Shown here: positions 15,717 to 59,000 of the stretch, piece after piece
Layout: each line of letters starts with the position of its first letter
Position numbering within the stretch: position 1 is the first letter of the stretch
Source: Phreatobacter aquaticus
GTDB lineage: Bacteria > Pseudomonadota > Alphaproteobacteria > Rhizobiales > Phreatobacteraceae
Length of the DNA stretch: 64,000 nt
Direction of reading: 5' to 3'
Assembly (NCBI RefSeq): GCF_005160265.1
Contig: NZ_CP039865.1
Location: 634,501 to 698,500 of the forward strand
Program-made: the position numbers and the translations under genes
Notes under the pieces: generated by a model
What the model saw: the letters and a program-made list of their open reading frames with translations, nothing else
Told to the model about the DNA's origin: nothing
Database searches by the model: none

Positions 15717-15783
15717 GGGGGAGTTCTGCCTACCTCGACGTGATGCTTGCCGAAGTCTGTCGCCTGCTCTCCCCAAGGCGCAC

Positions 15784-15910
15784 ACGTCACCCCCGGCGAG
15801 ACGCCAACAGGCGTCGAGAGAAGGGGGTCCAGAAAGAGCCCGGGCAGGCTGAGAAGCGGGAAGTCTGGATCCCCTTCCCTCGCCGTTTCACGGCTCGCCG
15901 GGGATGACGT
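15784..15910. repeat. Palindromic intergenic repeat, family B, copy 1
   Basis: Outer arms acgtcacccccggcgag and ctcgccggggatgacgt are inverted repeats; inner arms include agaagggggtccag and ctggatccccttccct. Four other copies are at 16134, 33828, 44859 and 46253. Confidence 0.88.
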
Positions 15911-15973
15911 CCGTGGTGTGACGCTGGTCGGTCCAGCCCCGACCTCTCCCTTATCCGACGCGCTCTCTCCCTT

Positions 15974-16086
15974 CCTCATCCTGAGGTGCGAGGCAAAGCC
16001 GAGCCTCGAAGGACCTCTTCTCGGCCCAGTCCAAAGGCGTCCTTCGAGGCTCAGTCACTAACGCTCCCTCGCACCTCAGGATGAGG
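15974..16086. repeat. Palindromic intergenic repeat, family A, copy 2
   Basis: Outer arms cctcatcctgaggtgcgagg and cctcgcacctcaggatgagg are nearly perfect inverted repeats; inner arms gagcctcgaaggac and gtccttcgaggctc also pair. Confidence 0.9.
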
Positions 16087-16133
16087 TGAGGAGAGGCTTG
16101 TGCGTCACGCAGACAAAACGGCCCCCCCTCACG

Positions 16134-16275
16134 ACGTCATCCCCGGCGAGACGCGCAGCGTCGAGGGAAGGGGATCCAGGAGCCACGCGATCGGTTCCGG
16201 CCGCAGGCAAAGCTGCCACGCCCTGGCGAACTGCCCCTGGGCCCCCTTCCCTCGCTTCGCTCGCCGGGGGTGACG
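16134..16275. repeat. Palindromic intergenic repeat, family B, copy 2
   Basis: Arms acgtcatccccggcgag and ctcgccgggggtgacg, with inner gagggaaggggatccagg and ctgggcccccttccctcg, mark this as the same element as copy 1, with a longer and diverged centre. Confidence 0.88.
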
Positions 16276-16332
16276 ACTGCGCATGCGACGATGGCCGGGC
16301 GCGGCTGGGTGCCAGGGCGGCAACGAGCCCCC

Positions 16333-33688: not shown

Positions 33689-34025
33689 GACGCGCTCCCT
33701 GTGTCCGGCGGCTCTGGAATCCCGGCCGCCCTGTCGTGCTGTTGCACGAAGAACGAAGCATCCTGGCGGAGCCAAGGCAAGCGGGGCCGAGGAACGCCGT
33801 TTGGGCGAGACGTCATCGCCCGTCACAACGTCACCCCCGGCGAGGCCGGTAGCGAGAGGCGAACGCATCTCGCGTTCGCTCGATGCTATAGGCCGAGGGA
33901 AGGGGGTCCAGGATCCCTGGGTGCGACCTTTGGGGCCCCTGGATCCCCTTCCCTCGCCGTTGCACGGCTCGCCGGGGATGACGTCAGAGCGTCAGTAGGA
34001 CGGGGCGCAGACGCCCCCTGCCCCC
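33689..34025. other. 337-base intergenic region holding repeat family B copy 3
   Basis: No gene is supported. About half of the region is the palindromic repeat at 33828-33984; the remainder should hold the promoter of the MDR reductase gene and any terminator of the secreted-protein gene, but no clear motif was seen. Confidence 0.75.
33828..33984. repeat. Palindromic intergenic repeat, family B, copy 3
   Basis: Outer arms acgtcacccccggcgag and ctcgccggggatgacgt pair; inner gagggaagggggtccagg pairs with cctggatccccttccctc. An extra hairpin (gcgaacgcatctcgcgttcgc) is inserted in the left arm. Confidence 0.9.
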
Positions 34026-35225: not shown

Positions 35226-35693
35226 TCAGTTCCGCTCGTCCGGCAGGACCGGGATCGGGTGGAACTCGACGCCTTCCTCGATCAGCTCGCGGGCTTCCTC
35301 GGGCGTCGCCTGACCATGGATGGTCCGGTGCTCGGTCTCGCCATAATGGATCTTGCGGGCTTCCTCGGCGAAGCGATCGCCGACCGATTCCGACTTCGCC
35401 AGCAGCTGGTCGCGGAATTCGCGAATCTTGGCACGCAGTTCCTGCTCGGCTTCCGAGACGATGGCGACCGGCTGGGGCGCCTGCGGCGCCGGAACCGGCG
35501 CATTGGAGATCGGCTCAGGCCGGCGGTCGCGGCGCGCCACCTGCGGCGCCATGATCACCTTAGCCACCTTGGTCGATCCGCAGACCGGGCAGGCGACGAG
35601 CCCGCGTGTCTGCTGCGCATCGAAACTGTCGGAGGAGGGAAACCAGCTCTCGAACTCGTGGGCCTTGTCGCAGGCGAGCGCATATTTGATCAT
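35226..35693 (-). CDS. DUF1178 family protein
   Basis: The 155-residue protein matches DUF1178: MIKYALACDKAHEFESWFPSS at the N-terminus, a CPVCGS zinc-ribbon-like pair at about residues 35-40 with the earlier Cys8, and the C-terminal segment KIHYGETEHRTIHGQATPEEARELIEEG. The function of the family is unknown. Its ATG overlaps the stop of the upstream nitrilase-like gene (ATGA), completing a ComF-Grx-Nit-DUF1178 operon widespread in alphaproteobacteria. Confidence 0.9.
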   Translation of the reverse strand: MIKYALACDKAHEFESWFPSSDSFDAQQTRGLVACPVCGSTKVAKVIMAPQVARRDRRPEPISNAPVPAPQAPQPVAIVSEAEQELRAKIREFRDQLLAKSESVGDRFAEEARKIHYGETEHRTIHGQATPEEARELIEEGVEFHPIPVLPDERN

Positions 35694-36526
35694 GGCGGCC
35701 CTCCCAGCGTGAAGGCCCTCCCATTGGCGAGCGAGGGGATGCGCCCGCGGATCTCGGCGACTTTGGCCATGTCGATCTCGGCCAGCACCACGGCCGGCTC
35801 GTCATGGTCGGCCTCCGCGATCACCGTGCCCCAGGGATCGACGATCAGGCTGTGGCCATAGGTATCGCGCCCGCAGACATGGTGGCCGCCCTGGGCCGCC
35901 GCGATCACGAAGCAGCCGTTCTCCACCGCGCGCGCCCGCATCAGCAGGTGCCAGTGCGCCTTGCCGGTCGGAACCGTGAAGGACGAGGGAATGGCCAGCA
36001 CGCCCGCGCCGGCCTCGGCCAGCGCCCGATAGAGATGGGGAAAGCGCAGGTCGTAGCAGATAGTGACGCCGAGCTTGGCCCACGGCAGATCCGCCAGCAC
36101 GGCACGGTCGCCGGGCTTGTAGGCGGCGGATTCTCGGTAGGTCTGCCCGTTCGCGAGATTGACGTCGAACATGTGGATCTTGTCATAGGTCGCGGTGACC
36201 GCGCCCTCCGGCGAGATCAGGAAGGCGCGGTTGGCGGCCTGCGTTTCGCCGGTCTTGATCGCCAGCGAGCCGATATGCAGCCAGATGCCCAGGCGCTTGG
36301 CCTCGGCCTGGAACACTGGCAGCGACAGGTCGTCCTCCTGCGCGCGGATCGCCTCGTAGAATTTCGGGCGATCCGGCTGCAGGATATTGGTCATTTCCGG
36401 CGTCTGGACATAGGTCGCGCCGTCACCGGCCGCGCCCGCGATCAGCGTCACCGCCTGTTCCAGGCTGCGAGCCGGATCGATGTCCGCCCGCATCTGCACG
36501 CAGGCCGCCGTGAATGTCCCGCCCAT
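35690..36526 (-). CDS. Carbon-nitrogen hydrolase (Nit1/Nit2-like)
   Basis: The 278-residue nitrilase-superfamily enzyme has the catalytic triad: Glu in QTPEMTN near residue 44, Lys in ATYDKIHMFDV near 115, and Cys in GVTICYDLRFPHLYRALAEAG near 153-173. This branch includes deaminated glutathione amidase (Nit1) and omega-amidase (Nit2). Adjacency to glutaredoxin supports a role in repair of deaminated glutathione, by inference. The ATG at 36526 is the start of homology and lies four bases after the grxC stop codon; upstream in-frame codons fall within grxC. The stop overlaps DUF1178. Confidence 0.9.
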   Translation of the reverse strand: MGGTFTAACVQMRADIDPARSLEQAVTLIAGAAGDGATYVQTPEMTNILQPDRPKFYEAIRAQEDDLSLPVFQAEAKRLGIWLHIGSLAIKTGETQAANRAFLISPEGAVTATYDKIHMFDVNLANGQTYRESAAYKPGDRAVLADLPWAKLGVTICYDLRFPHLYRALAEAGAGVLAIPSSFTVPTGKAHWHLLMRARAVENGCFVIAAAQGGHHVCGRDTYGHSLIVDPWGTVIAEADHDEPAVVLAEIDMAKVAEIRGRIPSLANGRAFTLGGPP

Positions 36527-36530
36527 GGCT

Positions 36531-36788
36531 TCAGGCCGCCAGCAGCTTGTCGAGGCCGCCGGCATCGTCCAGCGCATGGATGTCGTCGGAACCGCCGACA
36601 TGGGTGGTGCCGATGAAGATCTGCGGCACGGAGGTGCGACCGCCGGCCTTCTCGATCATTTCGGCCCGGCGCTCGGGATGCTTCTGGATATCCACTTCGG
36701 TGAAGGCCGCGCCCTTCTTGGTCAGCAGCGCCTTGGCGGCGTGGCAATAGGGGCAATAGTCCTTGGTGTAGATCACGATCTCGGGCAT
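36531..36788 (-). CDS. grxC: Glutaredoxin 3
   Basis: The 85-residue dithiol glutaredoxin has the active site CPYC (residues 12-15) in YTKDYCPYCHAAKALL, the cis-Pro segment TSVPQIFIG near 52, and GGSDDIHALD near 65 that binds glutathione. It reduces disulfides and mixed disulfides with glutathione in the cytoplasm. It is the second gene of the ComF-Grx-Nit-DUF1178 operon, 31 bases after ComF and four bases before the amidase-like gene. Confidence 0.96.
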   Translation of the reverse strand: MPEIVIYTKDYCPYCHAAKALLTKKGAAFTEVDIQKHPERRAEMIEKAGGRTSVPQIFIGTTHVGGSDDIHALDDAGGLDKLLAA

Positions 36789-38349: not shown

Positions 38350-39519
38350 TCATAGCGCCTTGGTGATCGCGTGAAGGCGCTCGATTCCAAGCGCAACGAG
38401 CCCGATGGCGAGCCCCCAGAAGGCCGCCCCGACACCGAAGGCGGAAACGCCGGAAGCGGCGGTTGCGAAGGTCAGAATGGCGGGAAACCGCGCCCGCTCC
38501 TCGGCCATGGCGATGGTCAGCGCGCCCATCAGCGCACCGGTGAGCGCCAGTCCCGCGATGGTCGCGATCAGCGCCTTGGGCATAGCGGCGAAGAGGGCGA
38601 CGAAAGGTCCGGCAAAGGCCGCCAGCAGAATGAAGGCCAGGCCATAGACGATACCCGATGGCCAGCGCCTAGCGGGATCGGGATGGGCGTCAGGCCCTGC
38701 GCAGATCGCCGCCGTGATCGCCGCGAGATTGCTGGTATGGGCGCCGAACGGCGCGGAGATGAGCGACACGATGCCGGTGGTCGTCAGGATCGGCCCGACC
38801 TCCGGCTTGTAGCCATTGGCCCTGAGCACGGCGAGCCCCGGCAGGTTCTGCGCCGCCATGGTGACGAGATAAAGCGGCAGGCCGAGCCCGATGAGGGTCG
38901 CGGCATCGAAGGTCGGCGTGGTCCATTCGAGCCTGGCCAGGCCGAGATCGGTCGGAAGCGGCCCGGCAAGACCGAGGCCGTAGGTCAGTGCGACACCGGC
39001 CGCCACCACAACCAGCATGGCGCTGGCGCCATGGATGAGCCGCGCCACCAGGAAGATCGCCACCAGCGGCAGGACCAGCAGCGGCGTGGTCGGCGCCATG
39101 ACAGCGACATCGGCGACGAAACGGAACAGCACGCCCGCCAGCATGGCGGAGGCGATGCCGGCCGGAATGCGCGCGACAAGATCGCCGATCGGCCGGACGA
39201 GGCCGGTCAGGATGATGAGGATCGCCGCAAGAACGAAGGCGCCTTCGGCCGCGGGAAAGGCGATCGTGCCGCCGGTCGCCGCGATCAGGGCTGCGCCGGG
39301 CGTCGACCAGGCCATGATGATCGGGATCTTGTACCGCCAGGTCAGCGCCATGCCGCCGATCGCCTTGGCGAGCGAGATGGCGGCAAGCCAGGAGATCGTC
39401 TGTCCAGGCGTCGCGCCGACTGCCTGGGCAGCCGCGATCACCAGCGCGACGGTGCCGGCAAAGCCGACCAGCGGGGCGATGATCCCGGCGGTGACGGTGG
39501 AAAGCGAGAAAGGCGGCAT
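38350..39519 (-). CDS. benE: Benzoate/H+ symporter family protein (BenE-like)
   Basis: The 389-residue inner-membrane protein has about twelve hydrophobic helices and the BenE pattern: STVTAGIIAPLVGFAGTVALVIAAAQAVGAT at residues 7-37, WRYKIPIIMAWSTPGAALIAATGG near 60-83, and GAHTSNLAAITAAICAGPDAHPDP near 260-283. BenE of Acinetobacter imports benzoate, but many homologues lie outside benzoate operons and no benzoate genes are present here. The start codon is only 11 bases downstream of the ahcY terminator T-tract and has no recognisable ribosome-binding site, so expression may be unusual. Confidence 0.87.
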   Translation of the reverse strand: MPPFSLSTVTAGIIAPLVGFAGTVALVIAAAQAVGATPGQTISWLAAISLAKAIGGMALTWRYKIPIIMAWSTPGAALIAATGGTIAFPAAEGAFVLAAILIILTGLVRPIGDLVARIPAGIASAMLAGVLFRFVADVAVMAPTTPLLVLPLVAIFLVARLIHGASAMLVVVAAGVALTYGLGLAGPLPTDLGLARLEWTTPTFDAATLIGLGLPLYLVTMAAQNLPGLAVLRANGYKPEVGPILTTTGIVSLISAPFGAHTSNLAAITAAICAGPDAHPDPARRWPSGIVYGLAFILLAAFAGPFVALFAAMPKALIATIAGLALTGALMGALTIAMAEERARFPAILTFATAASGVSAFGVGAAFWGLAIGLVALGIERLHAITKAL

Positions 39520-41130: not shown

Positions 41131-42297
41131 TCAGGCAGCGCACTCCTTGATCAGGCCCGCCAGGAACGCGTCGCACTTGTCGAGCTCGGAAAGCTCGATC
41201 CACTCGTCGGGCTGATGCGCCTGCGCGATATCACCAGGCCCACAGATGATCGTGGAGATGCCGGCTTCCTGGAAGAGGCCCGCCTCCGCGCCATAGGCGA
41301 CGACATGGATGGCATTGTCGCCGGTCAGCCGGCGGGCGACCCGTTCGGCCTCGCCATCCGGCTCCTGGCCGAGCGCGGGACCACCGACGCGATATTGGAT
41401 GGTCACTCCCGCATCGGGATGCACCGCCTTCATGGCCGGCTCGATCTCGGTGCGGATGTAATGCTCGTATTCGCGCACATATTTGCCGCCATCGTCGCCG
41501 GGAACGGTGCGGATGCCGGTGACGAAATGGGCGTCGAGCGCGGTGATGTTGTGCGCCGTGCCGCCATGCATCTGGCCGACATGCAGCATGGTCCAGCCGG
41601 GATCGAAATGGGGCACGCCGCCATAGGCCTCGGCATCGGCCTTGTTCTTCAGGTCGCGCTGCTCGATCCAGGAGATCAGCTTGGCCGCCACGAACACGGC
41701 GGAGACGCCGACATAGCGGTTGGAGGAATGGACCTCGTGGCCGCGCACATGGGTGTCGATCCGCCAATAGCCCTTGTGACCGGTGACCACCTTCATCCGG
41801 CTCGGCTCGCCGACGATGCACATGGAGGGCTTGGTCCAGCCCTTGTCGAATTTCTCGATGATGGCGCGGGCACCGTCCATGCGGATCTCCTCATCCGCCG
41901 ACAGGCAGATGTGGACCGGCCGCTTGAGGCCGGCCTTGAGCATGGCGGGGATGGCTGCCAGCACGCAGGCGTCGAAGCCCTTCATGTCGCAGGAGCCACG
42001 GCCATAGACGCGGCCGTCGCCCTTGTTGATCAGCTTGAATGGATCGGTGGTCCAGGGCTGGCCCGCCACCGGCACCACGTCGACATGGCCCGACAGCATC
42101 ACGCCACCCGGCACATTCGGCCCGACGGTGGCGAAGATGTTGAAATTCCGCCCGTCCGCCTGCGGCACCACCTCGAAGGGCACGCCGTGGCTCTTCAGAT
42201 AGTCGGAGACGAAGGCGACGAGATCGACATTGGTCGCGTCCGACACGGTCGGGAAGGCGACGAGGCGTTCGAGAAGTTCAAGGCTGGTCATCTGCAT
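41131..42297 (-). CDS. argE: Acetylornithine deacetylase
   Basis: The 388-residue M20A metallopeptidase-fold enzyme removes the acetyl group from N-acetylornithine. SGHVDVVPVAGQPWTTDPF (near residue 76) holds the first metal His and catalytic Asp, GRGSCDMKGFDACVLAA near 105 the bridging Asp, and LSADEEIRMDGARAI near 137 the catalytic Glu pair. The C-terminal metal His is in FQEAGISTIICGPGDIAQAHQPDEW. The ATG at 42297 is used; a TTG three codons earlier is possible. It is divergent from the amidohydrolase array (118 bases apart) and shares the same fold with it. Confidence 0.92.
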   Translation of the reverse strand: MQMTSLELLERLVAFPTVSDATNVDLVAFVSDYLKSHGVPFEVVPQADGRNFNIFATVGPNVPGGVMLSGHVDVVPVAGQPWTTDPFKLINKGDGRVYGRGSCDMKGFDACVLAAIPAMLKAGLKRPVHICLSADEEIRMDGARAIIEKFDKGWTKPSMCIVGEPSRMKVVTGHKGYWRIDTHVRGHEVHSSNRYVGVSAVFVAAKLISWIEQRDLKNKADAEAYGGVPHFDPGWTMLHVGQMHGGTAHNITALDAHFVTGIRTVPGDDGGKYVREYEHYIRTEIEPAMKAVHPDAGVTIQYRVGGPALGQEPDGEAERVARRLTGDNAIHVVAYGAEAGLFQEAGISTIICGPGDIAQAHQPDEWIELSELDKCDAFLAGLIKECAA

Positions 42298-42415
42298 GGC
42301 GCCCAAGGAGCCGCACCGGAGCCATGCACGTCAAGAGCACCTATTCGCATGGCTGGTCGATTGACCCCGGCGGGTTCGTCCGGTTCTCTTGGCGGCGCGT
42401 CCTTGGAAACCGTCA

Positions 42416-43579
42416 ATGCCGATCGTCAACCGGATCGCCGCACTGCATGATGAAGCCACCCTATGGCGGCGGGACTTTCATCAGCATCCCGAGCTGAACT
42501 TCGACCTGCCGCGGACCTGCGGCATTGTCGCCGACAAGCTGCGCGCATTCGGCTGCGACGAGGTCGTGACCGGCCTTGGCAGGACTGGCGTCGTCGGCAT
42601 CATCCGCGGGCGCGGCCAGGGCTCGGGCAAGGTGATCGGACTGCGCGCCGACATGGACGCCCTGCCGATCCATGAGATCAGCGGCAAGGACCATGCGTCC
42701 ACCACCCCCGGCAAGATGCACGCCTGCGGCCATGACGGCCACACCACCATGTTGCTCGGCGCCGCCAAATATCTCGCCGAGACGCGCAATTTCGACGGCA
42801 CGGTCGCCCTCATCTTCCAGCCCGACGAGGAAGGCGGCCACGGCGCCCGCGCCATGATCGCAGACCGCCTGATGGAGCGCTTCGGCATCCAGGAGGTCTA
42901 CGGGATGCACAACAGTGCGGCTCCCGTCGGCACGTTCTCGGTGCGCCAGGGTGCATCGAGCGCGGCGGTCGACTGGATCCATATTGTCGTCGAGGGCAAG
43001 GGCGGTCATGCCGCCAAGCCCCATCTGGCCGTCGACACCATCCTCGTCGCGGCGCAGATTGTCGTCGCCGTGCAGTCGATCGTCGCCCGCAATGTCGATC
43101 CGCTCGAGAGCGCCGTGATCTCGCTCTGCAGTCTGAACGCCGGTTTCACCAACAATGTCATCCCGCAGACGGCCGAATTGCGCGGCACCGTCCGTACCCT
43201 GTCCAAGGACGTGCAGGATCAGATCGAAGACCGTCTCCGCTCTGTCGTGGAGATGACCGCGAAAACCTTCGGCGCCACGGCCACCCTCACCTATCAGCGG
43301 GCCTGCCCGATGGTGGTCAACCACGCCGCCGAAGCCGATCACGCCGCCCTGGCCGCCGCCTCCGTCGTTGGCGACATCCAGGTCGACCGGATCAGTCCGC
43401 CCGGCATGGGTGGCGAGGATTTTGCTTTCATGCTCGAGACGCGCCCCGGCTGCATGGTCGGCATCGGCCAGGGCGGCGACTATGGCCTGCATCACCCGGC
43501 CTATGACTTCAACGACGAGATTCTGCCCATCGGCATGAGCTACTGGGCAAGGCTCGTCGAAACCAGGATGCCCGCCTGA
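42416..43579 (+). CDS. M20D family amidohydrolase, array copy 1
   Basis: The 387-residue enzyme resembles hippurate hydrolase and IAA-amino-acid hydrolases, which cleave the amide bond of N-acyl amino acids. Expected metal ligands are present: Cys and His in HACGHDGH, Glu in FQPDEEGG, His in YGMHNSAAP and His in LHHPAYDFND. The lid domain has GGHAAKPH but carries LNAGFTNNVIP where typical M20D enzymes have IHAG. Compared with the other four copies this is the most diverged near the N-terminus (RDFHQHPELNFDLPRTCG) and in PDEEGGHG. The ATG at 42416 gives the shared N-terminus MPIVNRI; the upstream codons are not conserved. No signal peptide, so cytoplasmic. Confidence 0.9.
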   Translation: MPIVNRIAALHDEATLWRRDFHQHPELNFDLPRTCGIVADKLRAFGCDEVVTGLGRTGVVGIIRGRGQGSGKVIGLRADMDALPIHEISGKDHASTTPGKMHACGHDGHTTMLLGAAKYLAETRNFDGTVALIFQPDEEGGHGARAMIADRLMERFGIQEVYGMHNSAAPVGTFSVRQGASSAAVDWIHIVVEGKGGHAAKPHLAVDTILVAAQIVVAVQSIVARNVDPLESAVISLCSLNAGFTNNVIPQTAELRGTVRTLSKDVQDQIEDRLRSVVEMTAKTFGATATLTYQRACPMVVNHAAEADHAALAAASVVGDIQVDRISPPGMGGEDFAFMLETRPGCMVGIGQGGDYGLHHPAYDFNDEILPIGMSYWARLVETRMPA

Positions 43580-43624
43580 CACGCCGACGGCCAGGCCAGA
43601 ACCAACCCATTGCCGGAGCTTCCC

Positions 43625-44791
43625 ATGCCCATCGTCAACCGGATCGCCGCGCTGCAGGACGAAGTCACTGCCTGGCGCCGCGACATCCATGAAAATCCCG
43701 AACTGATGTTCGACGTGCATCGCACTGCGGCGCTTGTCGCGACCAAGCTGAAGGAGTTCGGTTGCGACGAAATCGTCACCGGCATCGGCCGCACAGGCGT
43801 GGTCGGCATCATCAAGGGCCGCAATACCGGCTCGGGCAAGGTGATCGGCCTGCGCGCCGACATGGATGCCCTGCCGCTGCATGAGGCAACCGGCAAGCCC
43901 TATGCCTCCAAGGTTCCCGGCAAGATGCACGCCTGCGGCCATGACGGCCACACCGCCATGCTGCTCGGCGCGGCGAAATATCTCGCCGAGACCCGGAATT
44001 TCGACGGCTCGGTGGCCGTCATCTTCCAGCCGGCCGAAGAGGGCGGCGGCGGCGGCCGCGAGATGGTCAATGACGGCATGATGGAGCGCTTCGGCATCCA
44101 GGAGGTCTATGGCATGCACACCGCCGCCGGCATGCCGGTGGGGTCCTTTGCCCTGCGCCCGGGCCCGATGATGGCCTCGTCCGACCGCATGCGCGTCGTG
44201 GTCGAGGGCAAGGGCGGCCACGCCGCCAAGCCCCATCTCGCCGTCGACACGATCCTGGTTGCCTCCCACATTGTCGTGGCGCTGCAGTCGATCGTCGCCC
44301 GCAATGTGGACCCGCTGGAAAACGCGGTCATCACCATCGGCGCCTTCAATGCCGGCTTCACCAACAACGTGATCCCGCAGACCGCCGAGATCCTGGCCAC
44401 GATCCGCACGCTGAAGCCCGAGATCCGCGATCTCGTCGAGACGCGCATCAAGGCGGTGGTCGCGGGCACGGCGGCCCTGTTCGGCGCCCGCGCCGACATC
44501 GAATATGTCCGCGGCTATCCGGTGACCCGCAACCACGATGCCAACACGACCTTTGCGGCCGATGCCGCGGCCGCGATCGTCGGCGATGCCGGCATCAACC
44601 GCGACATCACGCCGATCATGGGCAGCGAGGACTTTTCCTACATGCTGGACTCGCGCCCCGGCGCCTTCATCTTCATCGGCCAGGGCGAAGGGCCCTTCGT
44701 CCATCACCCCGCCTTCGACTTCAACGACGAGATCCTGCCCATCGGCATGAGCTATTGGGCGAAGCTCGTCGAGACACGCCTCGCGGCGTAA
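43625..44791 (+). CDS. M20D family amidohydrolase, array copy 2
   Basis: The 388-residue protein follows copy 1 after 45 bases and shares MPIVNRI at the start. Metal ligands lie in HACGHDGH (about residues 102-109), FQPAEEGGGGG, YGMHTAAGMPVG and VHHPAFDFND. GSEDFSYM replaces the usual GGEDF. The lid domain has GGHAAKPH and FNAGFTNNVIP (His of the family replaced by Asn). The central catalytic block from SGKVIGLRADMDALP to YGMH is nearly identical to copy 3, including EEGGGGGREMVNDGMM. An N-acyl-amino-acid or related amide substrate is expected; the specific one is unknown. Confidence 0.9.
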   Translation: MPIVNRIAALQDEVTAWRRDIHENPELMFDVHRTAALVATKLKEFGCDEIVTGIGRTGVVGIIKGRNTGSGKVIGLRADMDALPLHEATGKPYASKVPGKMHACGHDGHTAMLLGAAKYLAETRNFDGSVAVIFQPAEEGGGGGREMVNDGMMERFGIQEVYGMHTAAGMPVGSFALRPGPMMASSDRMRVVVEGKGGHAAKPHLAVDTILVASHIVVALQSIVARNVDPLENAVITIGAFNAGFTNNVIPQTAEILATIRTLKPEIRDLVETRIKAVVAGTAALFGARADIEYVRGYPVTRNHDANTTFAADAAAAIVGDAGINRDITPIMGSEDFSYMLDSRPGAFIFIGQGEGPFVHHPAFDFNDEILPIGMSYWAKLVETRLAA

Positions 44792-44858
44792 TGTCAGCCG
44801 ACCGATCGCGGGGTGGTCTCGTTTCAACCGACCGCGCGGCAGGTCAAGCAACTCGTTC

Positions 44859-44965
44859 GTCATCCCCGGCGAGCCCGTGAGGGGGAGGGAAGGGGATCCA
44901 GGGGCCTCAAGGTCCGAGCCAACAACTCCTGGACCCCCTCCCTCGCTTCGCTCGCCGGGGGTGAC
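44859..44965. repeat. Palindromic intergenic repeat, family B, copy 4, in the amidohydrolase array
   Basis: gtcatccccggcgagc and gctcgccgggggtgac are the arms, with gagggaaggggatccagg and cctggaccccctccctc-type inner arms. The right flank (tcatccgcgaaaggtgatgatccgcc) is shared with copy 5 upstream of the next gene. Confidence 0.9.
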
Positions 44966-45027
44966 AATCATCCGCGAAAGGTGATGATCCGCCTTTTGCC
45001 AGACCATGACCCTCCGGGAGCATCCCC

Positions 45028-46194
45028 ATGCCGATCGTCAACCGCATCTCCGCCCTCCACGAGGAAGTCACAGGCTGGCGCCGTGACATCCACGAACATC
45101 CCGAACTGATGTTCGATGTGCACCGCACCGCCGCCTTCGTCGCCGAGAAGCTGAAGGAATTCGGCTGCGACGAGATCGTCACCGGCATCGGCAAGACCGG
45201 TGTCGTCGGCATCATCAAGGGATCGAAGTCAGGTTCGGGCAAGGTGATCGGGCTGCGCGCCGACATGGATGCCCTGCCGCTGACCGAGATCACCGGTAAG
45301 CCCTATGCCTCGAAGGTGCCCGGCAAGATGCACGCCTGCGGCCATGACGGTCACACCGCCATGCTGCTTGGCGCCGCCAAGTACCTCGCCGAGACCCGCA
45401 ATTTCGACGGTTCGGTGGCGGTCATCTTCCAGCCGGCCGAAGAGGGCGGCGGCGGCGGCCGCGAGATGGTCAATGACGGCATGATGGACCGCTTCGGCAT
45501 CCAGGAAGTCTATGGCATGCACAACGCGCCGGGCCTGCCGGTCGGCGCCTTCGCGCTGCGTCCCGGCCCTCTCATGGCGGCCGCCGATCGCATCCTGATC
45601 GAGGTCGAGGGCAAGGGCGGCCATGCGGCCAAGCCCCATCTCGCCGTCGACACGATCCTGGTCGCCTCGCAGATCATCGTGAACTGCCAGTCGATCGTCT
45701 CGCGCAATGTCGATCCGCTCGGCAATGCGGTGGTCTCGATCTGCGCCTTCAATGCCGGCTTCACCGACAATGTCATCCCGCAGACCGCGACCCTGCAGGG
45801 CACGGTCCGCACGCTGACCCCGGAGATGCGTGACCTGGTGGAAGCCCGCCTGCATGCCATCGTCGAGGGCACGGCGGCGCTGTTCGGCGCCAAGGCCAAG
45901 CTCACCTATCATCGCGACTATCCGGTGACCCGGAACAATCCGGAGAACACGGTCTATGCGGCGGATGTCGCGGAGGCCGTGGTGGGTGCGGCTGGCGTCA
46001 ACCGCGAGACCGTGCCGGTCATGGGCGGCGAGGATTTCTCCTTCATGCTGCAAGCGCGCCCCGGCGCCTTCATCTTCATCGGCCAGGGCGATGGCCCGAA
46101 CGTCCATCACCCGGCCTATGACTTCAACGACGAGATCATCCCGATCGGCATGAGCTATTGGGCGAAGCTGGTCGAGACCCGCCTCGCGGCGTAA
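45028..46194 (+). CDS. M20D family amidohydrolase, array copy 3
   Basis: The 388-residue enzyme has metal ligands Cys104 and His106 (HACGHDGH), Glu138/139 (PAEEGG), His165 (GMHN) and His360 (VHHP), with GGED at 333-336. The dimerisation (lid) domain spans about residues 185-300 and includes GGHAAKPH (198-204) and FNAGFTDNVIP (241-251), where the family histidine of IHAG is replaced by Asn242. Its 5' leader and the family B palindrome before it are duplicated in front of copy 4. ggagcatcccc precedes the ATG. Probably cytoplasmic; substrate unknown. Confidence 0.9.
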   Translation: MPIVNRISALHEEVTGWRRDIHEHPELMFDVHRTAAFVAEKLKEFGCDEIVTGIGKTGVVGIIKGSKSGSGKVIGLRADMDALPLTEITGKPYASKVPGKMHACGHDGHTAMLLGAAKYLAETRNFDGSVAVIFQPAEEGGGGGREMVNDGMMDRFGIQEVYGMHNAPGLPVGAFALRPGPLMAAADRILIEVEGKGGHAAKPHLAVDTILVASQIIVNCQSIVSRNVDPLGNAVVSICAFNAGFTDNVIPQTATLQGTVRTLTPEMRDLVEARLHAIVEGTAALFGAKAKLTYHRDYPVTRNNPENTVYAADVAEAVVGAAGVNRETVPVMGGEDFSFMLQARPGAFIFIGQGDGPNVHHPAYDFNDEIIPIGMSYWAKLVETRLAA

Positions 46195-46252
46195 TCACGG
46201 GCCCTGTCGCGTCGGTATCGTTCTTCGCAGCACAACAGGGCCGCACGCACAC

Positions 46253-46360
46253 ACGTCATCCCCGGCGAGCCCGTGGGGGCGAGGGAAGATGATCCAGGGG
46301 CCGCAAGGCTGAGCAACAAAGTCTGGACCCCCTTCCCTCGCTTCGGTCGCCGGGGGTGAC
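46253..46360. repeat. Palindromic intergenic repeat, family B, copy 5, in the amidohydrolase array
   Basis: acgtcatccccggcgag and gtcgccgggggtgac arms with inner gagggaagatgatccagg and ctggacccccttccctc. It lies between array copies 3 and 4 at the same distance from the next start codon as repeat copy 4. Confidence 0.9.
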
Positions 46361-46420
46361 TTTCATCCGCGAAAGGCGATGATCCGCCTTCCGCCAGAAC
46401 ATTCCGTCCCGGAGCATCCC

Positions 46421-47587
46421 ATGCCGATCGTCAACCGCATCTCCGCCCTGCACGATGAAGTCACCGCCTGGCGCCGCGACTTCCACGAATATCCCGAGCT
46501 GCAGTTCGACGTGCACCGCACCGCCGGCATCGTCGCCGAGAAGCTGAAGGAGTTCGGCTGCGACGAGGTCGTCACCGGCATCGGCCGCACCGGTGTGGTC
46601 GGCATCATCCGCGGCAAGTCGAACAATTCGGGCAAGGTGATCGGGCTTCGCGCCGACATGGACGCTCTGCCGCTGACCGAGATCACCGGCCTGCCCCATG
46701 CCTCCAAGGTGCCCGGCAAGATGCACGCCTGCGGCCATGACGGCCACACCGCCATGCTGCTGGGTGCGGCCAAATATCTCGCCGAGACCCGCAATTTCGA
46801 TGGCACGGCGATCATCATCTTCCAGCCGGCCGAAGAGGGCGAGAACGGCGCCCAGGCCATGGTCGAGGACGGACTGATGGAGCGCTTCGGCGTCCAGGAG
46901 GTCTATGGCATGCACAATGCGCCGGGACTGCCGGTTGGCCAGTTCGCGCTGCGCCCCGGCCCGCTTCTGGCGGCGGTCGACAATTTCCGCATCGAAGTGG
47001 AAGGCAAGGGCGGCCACGCCGCCAAGCCCCATCTCTCCGTCGATACGATCCTGGTCACCGCCCATATCGTCACGGCGCTCCAATCGATCGTCTCGCGCAA
47101 TATCGACCCTTTGAAGAACGCGGTCGTCACGGTCGGCGCCTTCAATGCCGGCTTCACCAACAACGTCATCCCGCAGACCGCGGAGCTGCGCGGCACGGTG
47201 CGCACCCTCGATGCCGAGGTCCGCGACTATGTCGAGCAGCGGCTGAAGGCGGTGGCCGAGGGGACTGCGGCGCTGTTCGGCGCCAAGGCGACTGTGCACT
47301 ACGAGCGCGTGGTGGCTGTCACCGTCAACGATCCCGCCCACACGCCCTATGCCGCCGATGCGGCCGCGTCGGTGGTCGGCGACACCGCCGTCAACCGCGA
47401 GTCGGTGCCGGTCATGGGCGGCGAGGACTTCTCCTATATGCTGCAGGCCCGCCCCGGCGCCTTCATCTTCATCGGCCAGGGCAACACGGCGAGCGTCCAC
47501 CACCCGGCTTACGACTTCAACGACGAGATCATCCCGCTCGGCATGAGCTATTGGGCGAAGCTCGTCGAAAGCCGCCTGGCGGCGTAG
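46421..47587 (+). CDS. M20D family amidohydrolase, array copy 4
   Basis: The 388-residue protein shares MPIVNRISALH with copy 3 and metal-binding segments HACGHDGH, FQPAEEGENG, YGMHNAPGLPVG and VHHPAYDFND. The stretch NFDGTAIIIFQPAEEG is shared with copy 5 rather than with copies 2 and 3 (NFDGSVAVIF), while the lid (GGHAAKPH, FNAGFTNNVIP) is of the copy 1-4 type. It thus looks like a mosaic. The ATG at 46421 is fixed by the conserved N-terminus. The leader and an upstream family B palindrome match those before copy 3. Confidence 0.9.
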   Translation: MPIVNRISALHDEVTAWRRDFHEYPELQFDVHRTAGIVAEKLKEFGCDEVVTGIGRTGVVGIIRGKSNNSGKVIGLRADMDALPLTEITGLPHASKVPGKMHACGHDGHTAMLLGAAKYLAETRNFDGTAIIIFQPAEEGENGAQAMVEDGLMERFGVQEVYGMHNAPGLPVGQFALRPGPLLAAVDNFRIEVEGKGGHAAKPHLSVDTILVTAHIVTALQSIVSRNIDPLKNAVVTVGAFNAGFTNNVIPQTAELRGTVRTLDAEVRDYVEQRLKAVAEGTAALFGAKATVHYERVVAVTVNDPAHTPYAADAAASVVGDTAVNRESVPVMGGEDFSYMLQARPGAFIFIGQGNTASVHHPAYDFNDEIIPLGMSYWAKLVESRLAA

Positions 47588-47698
47588 GACTTGCTGCACG
47601 CCAACCTTCAACATGCCCTCCGGCGCGCGACCGTGCGTCGCGGCGCCAAACGACTGATCGACGCCGGCTTGGCCGGCTAAAACCATACCGGAGTTCCC

Positions 47699-48865
47699 AT
47701 GCCTATCATCAACCGCGTTGCCGACCTCGCCGACGAGATCACTGCCTGGCGCCGTGACTTCCACGAGAATCCGGAACTGCTGTTCGACGTCCACCGCACC
47801 GCCGGCATCGTCGCCGAGAAGCTGAAGGAATTCGGCTGCGACGAAGTCACCACCGGCATCGGCCAGACCGGCGTCGTCGCGGTGATCAAGGGCCGCAAGT
47901 CAGGCTCGGGCAAGGTGATCGGGCTGCGCGCCGACATGGACGCGCTGCCGATCGAGGAGGCGACCGGCCTCGCCTATGCCTCCAAGGTGCCCGGCAAGAT
48001 GCACGCCTGCGGCCATGACGGTCATACCGCCATGCTGCTCGGCGCCGCCAAATATCTCGCCGAGACCCGTAATTTCGACGGCACCGCGATCATCATCTTC
48101 CAGCCGGCCGAAGAGGGCGGCGGCGGTGGCGATGCCATGGTCAAGGACGGTCTGATGGAGCGCTGGGGCATCCAGGAGGTCTATGGCATGCACAATATGC
48201 CGGGCATTCCGGTCGGCCAGTTCGCGGTCCGCACCGGCCCCGCCATGGCGGCCGCCGACCGCTTCGTCATCGACCTCGAGGGCAAGGGCGGCCACGGCGC
48301 CATGCCGCACCTGGCGATCGATCCCGTGCCGGTCGCCTTCTCCATCGGCCAGGCGCTGCAGACCATCGTCTCGCGCAATGTCGATCCGGTGGAATGCGCG
48401 GTCATCTCGATCACCGCGATCCATGCGGGCGAAGCCTTCAACGTCATCCCGCAGACGCTGCGCATGATCGGCACGGTGCGCACCTTCAAGCCTGAAGTGC
48501 AGGATCTCGTCGAGGCCCGCATGAAGCAGACGGTGGAGGGCATCGCCGCCGCCATGAACTGCACCGGCACCTGCGACTATCTGCGCGGTTATCCCGTGAC
48601 CTTCAACCACGAGAAGCAGACCGAGTTCGCCGCCGGCGTCGCCAAGGCGATCGTCGGCGCCGACAAGGTGGACACCGACACGCCGCCGCTGATGGGCGCG
48701 GAGGACTTCTCCTACATGCTGAATGCCCGGCCCGGCTGCTACATCTTCGTCGGCAATGGCGACACCGCGAGCTGCCACCACCCGGCCTATAATTTCGACG
48801 ACAAGGCGATCCCCGCCGGCACCAGCTACTGGGCCAAGCTCGTCGAAACCGCGATGCCGGCGTGA
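47699..48865 (+). CDS. M20D family amidohydrolase, array copy 5 (canonical lid)
   Basis: The 388-residue enzyme keeps HACGHDGH, FQPAEEGGGGG, YGMHNMPGIPVG and CHHPAYNFDD, but its lid domain differs from the other copies: GGHGAMPHLAIDPVPVAF and ITAIHAGEAFNVIPQT are the forms typical of hippurate and IAA-conjugate hydrolases, including the IHAG histidine. The N-terminus is MPIINRV rather than MPIVNRI. The stop codon overlaps a GTG start of the Gfo/Idh/MocA gene (GTGA), so these two are coupled. It is likely the ancestral-type or functionally distinct member. Confidence 0.91.
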   Translation: MPIINRVADLADEITAWRRDFHENPELLFDVHRTAGIVAEKLKEFGCDEVTTGIGQTGVVAVIKGRKSGSGKVIGLRADMDALPIEEATGLAYASKVPGKMHACGHDGHTAMLLGAAKYLAETRNFDGTAIIIFQPAEEGGGGGDAMVKDGLMERWGIQEVYGMHNMPGIPVGQFAVRTGPAMAAADRFVIDLEGKGGHGAMPHLAIDPVPVAFSIGQALQTIVSRNVDPVECAVISITAIHAGEAFNVIPQTLRMIGTVRTFKPEVQDLVEARMKQTVEGIAAAMNCTGTCDYLRGYPVTFNHEKQTEFAAGVAKAIVGADKVDTDTPPLMGAEDFSYMLNARPGCYIFVGNGDTASCHHPAYNFDDKAIPAGTSYWAKLVETAMPA

Positions 48866-49860
48866 CCATGGCAGCAGCAAAGGACGCACGCCCGGCCATC
48901 GGCATCATCGGTGCGGGGATCATGGGTGAGCGCATGCTCGGCGCGATCCTCGAGCCGGCGAGCGGCATTGTCCGCGCAGCGGGCATCTGGGATCCGGCGC
49001 CGGCGGCGCTGGCCCGCATCGGCTCGACCGCTCCCGGCGTGCCGCTGCTTGCCAGTGCGGCAGAGGTGATCGCAGCGAGCGACTGCGTTTACATCGCCTC
49101 GCCGCCGGCCTCCCATCTCGGCCATGCCCGGGCGGCTCTGGCGGCGGGCAAGACCGTGTTCTGCGAGAAGCCGCTGGCCGTCGACTATGACGATGCCCGC
49201 GCCTTCGTCGCGGAAGCCGGCAAGCGCGGGGCGGTCAACTTCCCCTTCGCGTCCTCACTCGGCGTCGCGACGCTTGCAAAGTGGATCGAGGATGGCCTGG
49301 TCGGGCCGTTGAAGAGCATCAGCATCGAGGTTGCCTTCGCCACCTGGCCGCGCTCCTGGCAGGTGGACGCTGCGGCCTGGCTTGATGCGCCGGCGCAGGG
49401 CGGGTTCACCCGCGAGGTCGTCTCGCATTTCCTGTTCCTGTCACGCCGGCTTGTGGGACCCCTGCACGACCTGGAATCGAGCGCCTCCTTCCCCGAACCG
49501 GGTAAGTCCGAACGGCGGATCGAGGCCCGGCTGATGGCAGCGGGCGTGCCCATCGCCCTCACCGGCAGTATCGGCACAACGGCCAAGGACGACCACAATG
49601 TCTGGACGCTCGAAGGCGCCAATGGCGCGGTCCGGCTCTGCGACTGGTCGATCGCCGAACGCCGGATGCCCGACGGCACCTGGCAACCGGACCCGAACGC
49701 CATGCCCAACCCGCAGGCACGGCCGCTCGTGCTGAAGCGCCAGCTCGAAGGCGTGGCGAAGCTGGTCCGCGGCGAGCCGCATCATCTGGCGACGCTTCCC
49801 GAGGCCCTCGACGTGCAGGCGATGGTCGAGGCGATCCTCGTCTCGGGAACGCGGGCCTAG
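48862..49860 (+). CDS. Gfo/Idh/MocA family oxidoreductase
   Basis: The 332-residue NAD(P)-dependent dehydrogenase has the Rossmann motif GIIGAGIMGERMLGAIL near residue 13, the substrate-loop segment CVYIASPPASHLGHARAALAAGKTVFCEKPLAVDYDDA near 75-112 with the conserved EKP lysine, and a C-terminal alpha/beta domain. Members act on sugars, inositol, biliverdin or amino-acid-like compounds; the substrate is not evident. The GTG at 48862 overlaps the stop of amidohydrolase copy 5; an ATG at 48868 is an alternative start. Its stop overlaps that of the convergent GMC gene in CTAG. Confidence 0.87.
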   Translation: MTMAAAKDARPAIGIIGAGIMGERMLGAILEPASGIVRAAGIWDPAPAALARIGSTAPGVPLLASAAEVIAASDCVYIASPPASHLGHARAALAAGKTVFCEKPLAVDYDDARAFVAEAGKRGAVNFPFASSLGVATLAKWIEDGLVGPLKSISIEVAFATWPRSWQVDAAAWLDAPAQGGFTREVVSHFLFLSRRLVGPLHDLESSASFPEPGKSERRIEARLMAAGVPIALTGSIGTTAKDDHNVWTLEGANGAVRLCDWSIAERRMPDGTWQPDPNAMPNPQARPLVLKRQLEGVAKLVRGEPHHLATLPEALDVQAMVEAILVSGTRA

Positions 49861-51494
49861 GCTTTCGCCGCGGCGCGCGCGTCCTCCAGGATCATCCGCG
49901 CGCCGTTCTCGGCGATCATCAGCGTCGGCGTGTTGGTATTGCCCGACGTGATGGTCGGCATGACCGAGGCATCGACCACCCTCAAGCCATCGATGCCGAT
50001 GACCCGCAGCCGCTCATCGACTACGGCGTTCGGATCGGAGCGCAGCCCCATCCTGGCGGTGCCGACCGGATGGAAGATCGTCGTGCCGATATCGCCGGCG
50101 GCGCGGGCAAGGCTTGCCTCGTCGTCGCCAATCGCGGGACCAGGCAGCACCTCCTCCGGACGATAGGCGGCAAGCGCCTGCTGGCGCATCAGGGTGCGGG
50201 CGACCCGGAGCGAATCCGCCGCCACCTGGCGATCCTCGTCGGTGGAGAGATAGTTCGGCGCGATGATCGGCTTGTCGTCCGGCTCGGCCGAGCGGATATG
50301 GATCGACCCGCGTGAGGTGGGCCTGAGATTGCAGGGCGCCACCGTCACCGCGGGATAGCGGTGCAGCGGCTCGCCGAACCGGTCGAGCGACAGCGGCTGG
50401 ATATGGAACTGGATATTGGCCCGCACCTGGTGCGGGTCGGACTTGGTGAAGATGCCGAGCTGGCTCGGCGCCATGGTCAGCGGGCCAGTGCGCCTCAGCG
50501 CATATTCGAGGCCCATCAGGCCCCGCTTGAACAGATTGTGGTAAGTCTCGTTCAGCGTCTTGACGCCATGGACCTTGTAGATCGAGCGAATCTGCAGATG
50601 GTCCTGCAGGTTCTCGCCGACGCCCGGCTTGTCGAGCACCACCGGAATGCCGTGCTGGCCAAGCACCTCGCCGCGGCCGATGCCGGAGCGCTCCATGATG
50701 GCGACCGAGCCGAGCGAGCCAGCCGCCAGAACGACCTCGCCGGCAGCCCGCGCGATCACCTGTTCGCCGTGATTGGCGAACTGGACGCCGGTGACACGGC
50801 CGGCCTCGACGACCAGCTTGTTGACCGTGACACCGGAGAGCACCTCGAGATTGTCGCGCTCGTCGATGATCGACTTGAGGAAGCCGCGCGCAGATGACCA
50901 GCGCAGGCCCTTCTTCTGATTGACGTGGAAATAGGCGGCGCCCTCGTTGTCACCGGTGTTGAAATCGTCGATCGCCGGAATGCCCATCTCGCCGGCGGCC
51001 TGGCGCACCTTGTCGAGCAGGTCCCAGCGCACGCGTGGTGCTTCCACCCGCCATTCGCCGCCCTTGCCGTGATGCTCGCTGTCGCCGAGGAAATGGTCCT
51101 CCAGCTTGCGAAACAGCGGACGCACATCGTCCCAGCCCCAGCCGGCAAGTCCCAGCTGGCGCCAATGGTCATAATCGGCGGCCTGGCCGCGCATCACGAT
51201 CATCGCATTGATCGCCGAGGAGCCGCCCATCACCTTGCCGCGCGGATAGGCGAGCGCACGGCCGTTGAGGCCCGCCTCCGGCTCGGTCTTGAACATCCAG
51301 TCGGAGCGCGGATTGCCGATGGCGAAGAGATAGCCGACCGGAATGTGGAACCAGATCCAGTCGTCCTTGGTGCCCGCCTCCAGCAGCAGCACGCGGTTCC
51401 TTGGGTTGGCCGAGAGACGGTTGGCCAGCAGGCAGCCGGCGGTGCCCGCGCCGCACACGATATAGTCCCACTCGCCGCCGAGCTGTCGCGCCAT
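49857..51494 (-). CDS. GMC family FAD oxidoreductase (choline dehydrogenase-like)
   Basis: The 545-residue flavoprotein has the FAD motif YIVCGAGTAGCLLANRLS at residues 11-28, GMC signature 1 region YPRGKVMGGSSAINAMIVMRG near 83, signature 2 region EVVLAAGSLGSVAIMERSGIG near 253, and the C-terminal IFHPVGTARMG (catalytic His) and DASVMPTITSGNTNTPTLMIAE. It oxidises an alcohol, transferring electrons to FAD; choline, PEG or aliphatic alcohols are options. Divergent from denD with 229 bases between. The absence of betaine aldehyde dehydrogenase nearby argues against a true BetA. Confidence 0.9.
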   Translation of the reverse strand: MARQLGGEWDYIVCGAGTAGCLLANRLSANPRNRVLLLEAGTKDDWIWFHIPVGYLFAIGNPRSDWMFKTEPEAGLNGRALAYPRGKVMGGSSAINAMIVMRGQAADYDHWRQLGLAGWGWDDVRPLFRKLEDHFLGDSEHHGKGGEWRVEAPRVRWDLLDKVRQAAGEMGIPAIDDFNTGDNEGAAYFHVNQKKGLRWSSARGFLKSIIDERDNLEVLSGVTVNKLVVEAGRVTGVQFANHGEQVIARAAGEVVLAAGSLGSVAIMERSGIGRGEVLGQHGIPVVLDKPGVGENLQDHLQIRSIYKVHGVKTLNETYHNLFKRGLMGLEYALRRTGPLTMAPSQLGIFTKSDPHQVRANIQFHIQPLSLDRFGEPLHRYPAVTVAPCNLRPTSRGSIHIRSAEPDDKPIIAPNYLSTDEDRQVAADSLRVARTLMRQQALAAYRPEEVLPGPAIGDDEASLARAAGDIGTTIFHPVGTARMGLRSDPNAVVDERLRVIGIDGLRVVDASVMPTITSGNTNTPTLMIAENGARMILEDARAAAKA

Positions 51495-57475: not shown

Positions 57476-58837
57476 TCAGCGCCGGTTCGGCGGATTGGTC
57501 TGGCGGTTGCCGGCAGGCTGAGGCGCGACGATCCGCACGGCGGCATCCGCTGCCCGCTCGCCGGACGCCCAGGCGCCGCCCACCGTGCCCCACAGGCCAT
57601 CGTCTGTCGCCTCACCGGCGAACAGCAGCCGTTGTCCCACCGGCTCGGCGAGCCTGAGGCGCTGCCCCGTCGCACCCGGCCCCGCCACCGACCAGGAACC
57701 GCGAATGAACGGATCGGTGGTCCATGACGTGACATGGATCTCGCCGAGAGCGCGGCGGGCGCGTGGCCCCAGTTCATTGCCGACGAATTCGGCAGCAAAG
57801 GCCTTCATCGCGGTCGGTCCCGCATTGGCGAGATCACGGGCGAACTTGCCGCCAATGTCGAGATACCACCAGTCCGAGCCGCCGATGCGGGCGAGCGGCT
57901 TGGCGGTCGCCGATGTGTCGGCCTTGACCACGAAGGGCTCATCGGGCTTCGCATCCATCGGATTGTCGGCAAGATGCACGATCAGGTGCTCATAGGCGCC
58001 GCAACCCAGGGCCTGGATCGCATCGAGCTGGCGCTTCGGGATCGCGGGCGCGAAGCGGATCACGTTGGAGGCCAGCACAGCCGTCGACACGGTGACGATG
58101 GCCACCCGCGCCTGGATCTTCCCCGACGGCGTTTCCACTGTCACGCCCCGACCGGACCAGTCGACGCGGGTCACCGCTGTCGACAGGCGCACAGGAAGGC
58201 CCTCGCCGAGTTTCTCGATCACTGCGCCATAACCCTGGCGGCAGAACTGGTCGCGCGTCTCCAGCGCATTGTAGAAATCGACGCAGGAGATTTCCGAGGT
58301 CTCCTTGCCGGAATCCCAGGCTCCCCGCAGGAACTCGATGGTCGGTCGCCAGTCGGCGAGGTCGGACGGCATCACCTCTGACAGCGGCACCTCGCGCCCA
58401 GCCTCGCCGGCATCAAGAATGGCCCGCTGGCTGCGCCGGAGCGCACCTGCAAAGCTCTCGCGCTCGCCCTCCCGCGGACCTCGGCCCTTGATCAGCAGGC
58501 GCGGCCGTTCGGGATCGTCATAGAGGTCGAAGCCCGCCGCCTTGGCCAGCGGCACGACGGGGTTGTCGGCGGGGGCATGGATCCAGTGGGCGCCGAGATC
58601 CATCGGCACGCCGAAAGTGACCACATCGGTATGGGCGCGGCCGCCGATGCGGTCCTTGGCCTCCACCACCACGACCGTGCGCCCGGCGGCCTTCAGCCGC
58701 CGCGCCGCGGCAATCCCGGCGGCTCCAGCGCCGATCACCACCACGTCCACATCAACGACCGGCGGTCGCGTCCCCTGGCCGAGCGCGGGCGCCGACAGGA
58801 TCGTGGCTGTTCCGGCGATGAGGCCGCGGCGGGTCAT
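57476..58837 (-). CDS. Flavin monoamine oxidase family protein (Tat-exported)
   Basis: The 453-residue flavoprotein has a twin-arginine leader (MTRRGLIAGTATILSAPALG), then the FAD motif VVVIGAGAAGIAAARRLKAAG near residue 31 and VVEAKDRIGGRAHT. The C-terminus has the second FAD segment QRLLFAGEATDDGLWGTVGGAWASGERAADA. Such enzymes oxidise amines, including polyamines or L-amino acids; substrate is unknown. The ATG at 58837 has ggaag five bases upstream; an alternative ATG at 58852 adds five residues. The gene starts 163 bases from the divergent YiiX-like gene. Confidence 0.88.
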   Translation of the reverse strand: MTRRGLIAGTATILSAPALGQGTRPPVVDVDVVVIGAGAAGIAAARRLKAAGRTVVVVEAKDRIGGRAHTDVVTFGVPMDLGAHWIHAPADNPVVPLAKAAGFDLYDDPERPRLLIKGRGPREGERESFAGALRRSQRAILDAGEAGREVPLSEVMPSDLADWRPTIEFLRGAWDSGKETSEISCVDFYNALETRDQFCRQGYGAVIEKLGEGLPVRLSTAVTRVDWSGRGVTVETPSGKIQARVAIVTVSTAVLASNVIRFAPAIPKRQLDAIQALGCGAYEHLIVHLADNPMDAKPDEPFVVKADTSATAKPLARIGGSDWWYLDIGGKFARDLANAGPTAMKAFAAEFVGNELGPRARRALGEIHVTSWTTDPFIRGSWSVAGPGATGQRLRLAEPVGQRLLFAGEATDDGLWGTVGGAWASGERAADAAVRIVAPQPAGNRQTNPPNRR

Positions 58838-59000
58838 CAAGCTTCCGTTCATCGTGCTTCGCGAATCCTGCTCATAACGGGTCCATATCACGGGCTCATT
58901 TCACCGGCGTTGCGCCACGGGCATCTTTCGTGAACCGCTTGGCAACGGATAGCGACCCACACTCAGCGTCCAAGAACGACAGTCCCTGGGGAGGGACATC

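Follow-up and report, generated by a model that had tools for sequence, protein, structure and literature searches.

An old, genus-wide tandem array of M20D amidohydrolase genes in Phreatobacter, an enzyme family widened by gene duplication

A tandem array of five M20D amidohydrolase genes lies on the plus strand at 42416-48865 of the window, the 64,000-nucleotide stretch of Phreatobacter aquaticus DNA analyzed here (contig NZ_CP039865.1, positions 634,501 to 698,500). All five genes start with ATG and are free of internal stops. Together with a divergent gene for an ArgE-type deacylase, they place six M20-fold genes in a row. The genes are as follows, with orthogroups as defined below.

41131-42306, minus strand: ArgE-type M20A deacylase, divergent from the array (TIGR01892 and NF005710)
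42416-43579, plus strand: gene 1, M20D amidohydrolase, 387 amino acids, orthogroup AB
43625-44791, plus strand: gene 2, M20D amidohydrolase, 388 amino acids, this genome only, nearest to gene 3 (81% identity)
45028-46194, plus strand: gene 3, M20D amidohydrolase, 388 amino acids, orthogroup C
46421-47587, plus strand: gene 4, M20D amidohydrolase, 388 amino acids, orthogroup D
47699-48865, plus strand: gene 5, M20D amidohydrolase, 388 amino acids, orthogroup E, probably a separate lineage

The array proteins are 60-81% identical in pairs, with no near-identical copies. Four begin with MPIVNRI and one with MPIINRV, and the segments HACGHDGH, EE, GMH and HHP are present in all five. The original prediction, made from the sequence of this DNA, described five consecutive intact M20D genes beside a divergent argE, and the coordinates, frames, motifs and N-termini all bear this out. 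No regulator or transporter gene lies inside the array, as had also been noted; the intergenic spacers of 45, 236, 226 and 111 bases leave no room for one. The window genome is one contig of 4,974,952 bases with 28 Peptidase_M20 hits. It was taken as that of Phreatobacter sp. NMCR1094, which the accessible part of its report describes as a freshwater stream bacterium with a single circular chromosome, assembled from PacBio reads at 183x (PMC6742797). An assembly artefact was ruled out: five copies stand in this single-contig PacBio assembly, and array-type genes are held by 12/12 genomes of the genus. An 848-amino-acid open frame also runs antisense to genes 1 and 2 (42461-45007, minus strand). 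Similar long antisense frames occur in some congeners, and the frame is probably a by-product of high GC content.

The five proteins all passed the NCBIfam model TIGR01891 with 338.5-369.4 bits against a cut-off of 153.75. All five stayed below the cut-offs of two narrower models, the CpsA carboxypeptidase model NF040868 (321.7-386.9 bits, cut-off 500) and the DoeB2 ectoine deacetylase model NF038260 (293-335.4 bits, cut-off 550). The Peptidase_M20 domain was found in every one, and it was accompanied by M20_dimer in genes 4 and 5, the two examined. For the same two genes, which were the two of the five searched, the best solved relatives were YxeP (1ysj) and an indole-3-acetic acid (IAA)-amino acid hydrolase (1xmb).

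Twelve active-site and pocket positions are invariant in all 55 array-type genes of the 12 genomes: D79, D81, C104, H106, E138, E139, H165, H199, N248, R261, H360 and H361. Among 99 sequences from outside the genus, nine of the 11 positions checked are invariant, while position 248 is Asn in 98/99 and position 361 is His in 78/99. From the alignment and the known features of the family, we take C104, H106, E138, E139, H165 and H360 to be the cysteine-containing metal site and the catalytic glutamate. Within HHP, H360 was taken as the metal ligand because 1xmb reads H-S-P there. The model scores and the twelve fixed positions uphold the earlier assignment to M20D with intact active sites.

Conservation was followed across 12 genomes, which served as both the genus and the family sample. 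Each genome holds four or five array-type genes, giving 55 in total, two of them cut by contig ends. A phylogeny with M20D relatives, which the original prediction had proposed, was built from 154 proteins (the 55 and 99 others); it resolved orthogroups AB, C, D and E and left gene 2 alone. Orthogroup AB contains 16 genes in 10/12 genomes. Orthogroups C, D and E contain 12 genes each and are found in 12/12 genomes, with C present once per genome; two C-like duplicates occur, one in genome G005 and one in G011. Gene 2 was found only in the window genome among the 12. Orthogroups AB, C and D, the C-like duplicates and gene 2 together form one genus-only clade, with a Shimodaira-Hasegawa-like approximate likelihood ratio test (SH-aLRT) value of 99 and support of 100/99 in a smaller tree of 66 rows.

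Orthogroup E forms another clade, apart from AB, C and D. In the 66-row tree, a single grouping of all genus genes carries a cost of 25.8 log units, with an approximately unbiased test value (p-AU) of 0.013. This tree included 23/55 genus rows (5/12 genomes) and 43/99 others, chosen partly to leave out long branches; the p-AU is only indicative because the rows were hand-chosen and the grouping was tested after the first tree had been seen. Gene 5 is thus probably a separate lineage, older or acquired, which would make genes 1-4 a later expansion. The five genes are paralogous M20D genes, as first described; they are not an equal set, given this probable separation and the restriction of gene 2 to one genome.

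At least four members stand in one run on one contig in 10/12 genomes, with a 1.2-kb gap before the E gene in G004 and G007. The genome of G003 is fragmented. The one-contig genome G001 (loci L093 and L094) has three members at 1.40 Mb; the other two, at 4.37-4.38 Mb, are 8.6 kb apart on opposite strands. All five G001 members lack internal stops; the set has been split, yet five members are retained. The array is therefore old, genus-wide and of a known kind, an enzyme family widened by gene duplication.

The ratio of nonsynonymous to synonymous substitution rates (dN/dS), another check proposed earlier, was computed pairwise only. Its values are rough because the whole-gene dS is high, about 0.4-0.8. 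The median within groups is 0.253 for AB, 0.192 for C (with the two C-like duplicates), 0.178 for D and 0.160 for E. Within the window array, dN/dS is 0.26-0.54 by pair, and the top regional value is 0.74 (genes 2 and 5, lid). Purifying selection on the array genes is shown. None of the 55 copies found is broken (two are truncated by contig ends, and badly broken ones may have escaped the search), and decaying duplication was rejected on this result.

Divergence between the copies is uneven along the protein. Identity is 73-90% in residues 1-175 and falls to 49-75% in two regions of residues 176-388. The stretch before N248 reads GFTDNVIP in 12/12 C proteins, GF(T/A)NNVIP in 12/12 D proteins and GEAFNVIP in 12/12 E proteins, and group-specific stretches are also present within 341-362. 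At residue 209, AB, C, D, the C-like duplicates and gene 2 have Thr where E has Pro; both residues are common outside the genus (37/99 each). Judged from these alignments, the group-specific stretches fit different pockets on a fixed core.

Exchange between the copies was also considered. The relevant noncoding features are:

44858-45026, no strand: spacer preceding gene 3, made up of a dispersed palindromic repeat and a flank; 86% identity to the gene 4 spacer
46254-46420, no strand: spacer preceding gene 4, homologous to the gene 3 spacer
44858-45007 and 46254-46402: palindromic repeat copies, with further pieces within 15778-16276 and 33894-33992

Over the 170 bases that end at the start codons, the two spacers share 86% identity, and each consists of a palindromic element dispersed in the genome and a flank matching only that of the other. 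The repeat is about 108 bases long; with 40 of its 73 candidates scored, it gave 86 genome matches at E <= 0.001, many of them both strands of one place. Tandem duplication of gene 3 plus the spacer that follows it would produce this order, and so would conversion; the two routes could not be separated. Wholesale gene conversion behind the similar N-terminal halves was rejected, since AB, D and E were recovered in DNA trees of both gene halves; C emerged from the second-half tree alone. The N-half tree places gene 2 with gene 3 (SH-aLRT 90), and the second-half tree does not; in the 66-row protein tree, gene 2 is a weakly supported sister (81/75) of the C rows. Within genomes, the C-D four-fold divergence is 0.19 for residues 1-90 and 0.22 for residues 91-175, slightly below the between-genome values of 0.25 and 0.27, and partial exchange between C and D copies is possible. 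Scans returned two promoter-like sites (shuffle mean 0.8, standard deviation 1.2) and one terminator-like site (shuffle mean 3.2, standard deviation 1.8), and therefore lend no support to separate promoters.

The neighboring genes needed for interpretation are:

38353-39519, minus strand: BenE-family transporter, over the family cut-off
48862-49860, plus strand: Gfo/Idh/MocA oxidoreductase, its open frame sharing 4 bases with the end of gene 5
49857-51494, minus strand: GMC oxidoreductase, on the stretch with orthogroup E in 11/12 genomes (the stretch fetched for G001 ended too soon)

The ArgE-type gene passes two acetylornithine deacetylase models, TIGR01892 (373.9 bits, cut-off 297.7) and NF005710 (443 bits, cut-off 412). 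It is linked to array genes in 11/12 genomes of the genus, and in the remaining one, G006, only 47 bases of contig lie beyond the outermost array gene. The window genome encodes argJ elsewhere (377.3 bits, cut-off 298), so arginine synthesis probably does not depend on the ArgE-type gene. This, and its company with M20D genes in 20 loci of a Rhodobacterales clade, indicates that it is probably catabolic. The neighboring argE first described is thus a divergent M20 gene of the acetylornithine deacetylase type whose arginine role is doubtful. On the other side of the array, the Gfo/Idh/MocA gene follows orthogroup E in 10/12 genomes and was not found in G005 and G011. A GMC oxidoreductase also occurs in five Bradyrhizobium-type loci: four have it next to the M20D gene, and in L035 it is 4.3 kb off. 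The M20D genes of these loci belong to the clade closest to genes 1-4. A carbon-nitrogen hydrolase (35693-36601, minus strand) and a flavin amine oxidoreductase (57479-58891, minus strand) are also encoded less than 10 kb from the array.

Relatives at E <= 1e-140 were found in 247/396 genomes sampled from the order, counting copies per genome whether adjacent or not. Four matches per genome, the ceiling of the scoring, were reached only in the 10 genomes of this genus in that sample; one other genome has three. Gene neighborhoods were surveyed in 80 named loci, the best 80 of a longer list, and 10 of them hold tandem genes of this M20D type (six with three and four with two). A further locus, L042, pairs an M20D gene with a 36% relative and was left out of the tandem count. 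The 10 tandem loci bear genus names that we take to belong to Rhodobacterales. Their array genes form a clade separate from the genus genes, and these arrays would accordingly have arisen independently.

An ArgE-type gene, 43-49% identical to that of the window, is present in 20/80 loci, every one of them from the Rhodobacterales clade (L039 bears just the name Proteobacteria), and in nine of the 10 tandem loci, L055 being the one without it. Family-5 (peptide-type) solute-binding proteins accompany 16 of these 20, DAO-type FAD oxidases 11, and an oligopeptide-transporter ATPase at at least 76% identity nine. These context counts used E <= 1e-30 over half the query and include L085, the source of the queries. 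The Rhodobacterales arrays thus resemble the window array in their tandem M20D genes with an ArgE-type gene usually beside them; they differ in having two or three copies, in their separate clade, in the same-strand placement of the ArgE-type gene and in the frequent presence of transporter genes.

On balance, it is likely that the array encodes aminoacylases or carboxydipeptidases, with a range of N-acyl amino acid or dipeptide substrates most likely shared out among the copies. In the available part of PMC11511702, M20D enzymes are described as aminoacylases, and CsAga has two zinc ions bridged by a cysteine. A reference title cited there terms three M20D enzymes carboxydipeptidases, and work on Met-X carboxydipeptidase activity appears there by title. 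Among 15 plasmid relatives listed, six are annotated "M20 aminoacylase family protein". The five proteins would be cytoplasmic hydrolases with a two-metal site. The probable target of each is an amide bond that joins an amino acid, its carboxylate free, to an acyl group or N-terminal residue. All copies have the same metal and catalytic residues; the lid (dimerization) domain, the C-terminal part and loops near the conserved pocket residues vary, and through them the copies may share out their substrates. A salvage route for N-acyl amino acids or short peptides, common with the ArgE-type deacylase, is suggested by the Rhodobacterales context, the listing of M20D aminoacylases and the annotations of the plasmid relatives.

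Several observations weigh against this interpretation. The M20D relative HmrA is termed an endopeptidase in a reference title (PMC11511702). No transporter gene adjoins the array, the nearest found being the BenE-family gene about 3 kb away. The ArgE-type neighbor is not unique, because a second NF005710 gene elsewhere in the genome scores higher (525.4 bits). Genes 3 and 4 are more alike in their N-terminal halves and have homologous spacers, a hint at recombination between copies, which would blur the divergence estimates. At 90% conservation, C and D have different fixed residues at only eight positions, and only 2/167 conserved columns carry three or more residues across the groups; the divergence may therefore be partly drift under weaker constraint.

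Taken further, drift would mean that some copies are duplicates heading to loss under weaker selection and that only some groups (C, D and E) are needed. AB shows the highest dN/dS (0.253) and is absent from 2/12 genomes, and gene 2 is a long branch confined to one genome; however, the active sites are invariant in AB and gene 2 too, and the 55 genes include no broken copy, within the limits given above. We consider this unlikely. The copies could also share one reaction and be kept for more enzyme. The common family and active site, the head-to-tail layout and the similar spacers, which point to exchange or copying within the array, agree with such a dosage effect. It is nevertheless improbable, because the copies are only 60-81% identical and mostly fall into orthogroups kept genus-wide, with AB, D and E distinct in both half trees and C in one. 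Of the two motives originally proposed, a range of amides or high dosage, selection keeping diverged copies stands and dosage loses ground. Degradation of hippurate or another aromatic conjugate, with the BenE-family transporter moving benzoate, is very improbable: the hippurate hydrolase HipO is listed as M20D in the accessible text of PMC11511702 and BenE lies near the array, but BenA gave one weak genome hit (28.9 bits, cut-off 780.95), BoxB gave no hit over cut-off in a search for which no control genome passed the cut-off and which covered no other benzoate route, and BenE was seen in the fetched stretches, which differ in reach, of only 2/11 other genomes (G005 and G011), so hippurate, named at first among the substrates, has no pathway support as the main one.

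A widened substrate range thus remains the best reading of the retained, diverged copies. A broader proposal, offered tentatively and held to be rather doubtful, is that an ArgE-centered salvage cassette separately grew M20D arrays in Hyphomicrobiales (Phreatobacter) and Rhodobacterales, with duplication widening the substrates around an unchanged catalytic core. Since the dimer contact is also formed by the lid, lid divergence would perhaps set which paralogs pair. The interest of the array lies in its intact paralog series and in the parallel Rhodobacterales arrays. If the five enzymes differ in substrate, they form a compact natural series in which aminoacylase specificity could be related to changes in lid and pocket, and they would point to the way a water-dwelling bacterium exploits mixed acylated amino acids or peptides. 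If they do not, this is a tidy but ordinary tandem duplication with retention.

Among the matches listed, in the parts of the texts available, literature on M20D paralogs, tandem hippurate hydrolases, M20 aminoacylases and Phreatobacter amidohydrolases gave no prior description of this array. The accessible parts of PMC11411728, on a relative of Phreatobacter, held nothing on these genes, and the terms sought were absent from those of PMC2447312. For M20D aminoacylases and carboxydipeptidases, the available text of PMC11511702 mentions no tandem array. YxeP (1ysj), CsAga (6slf), BcepM20D and HmrA are like the array proteins in family, length, conserved motif pattern and lid domain. Tandem pairs occur among the genes for plant ILR1-like IAA-amino acid hydrolases (1xmb). 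These hydrolases differ from the array enzymes in being plant proteins of the endoplasmic reticulum that act on hormone conjugates. They are likewise an M20D paralog family acting on amino acid amide conjugates, as far as the available text of PMC11511702 goes, and their specificities overlap, according to the accessible part of PMC4793799.

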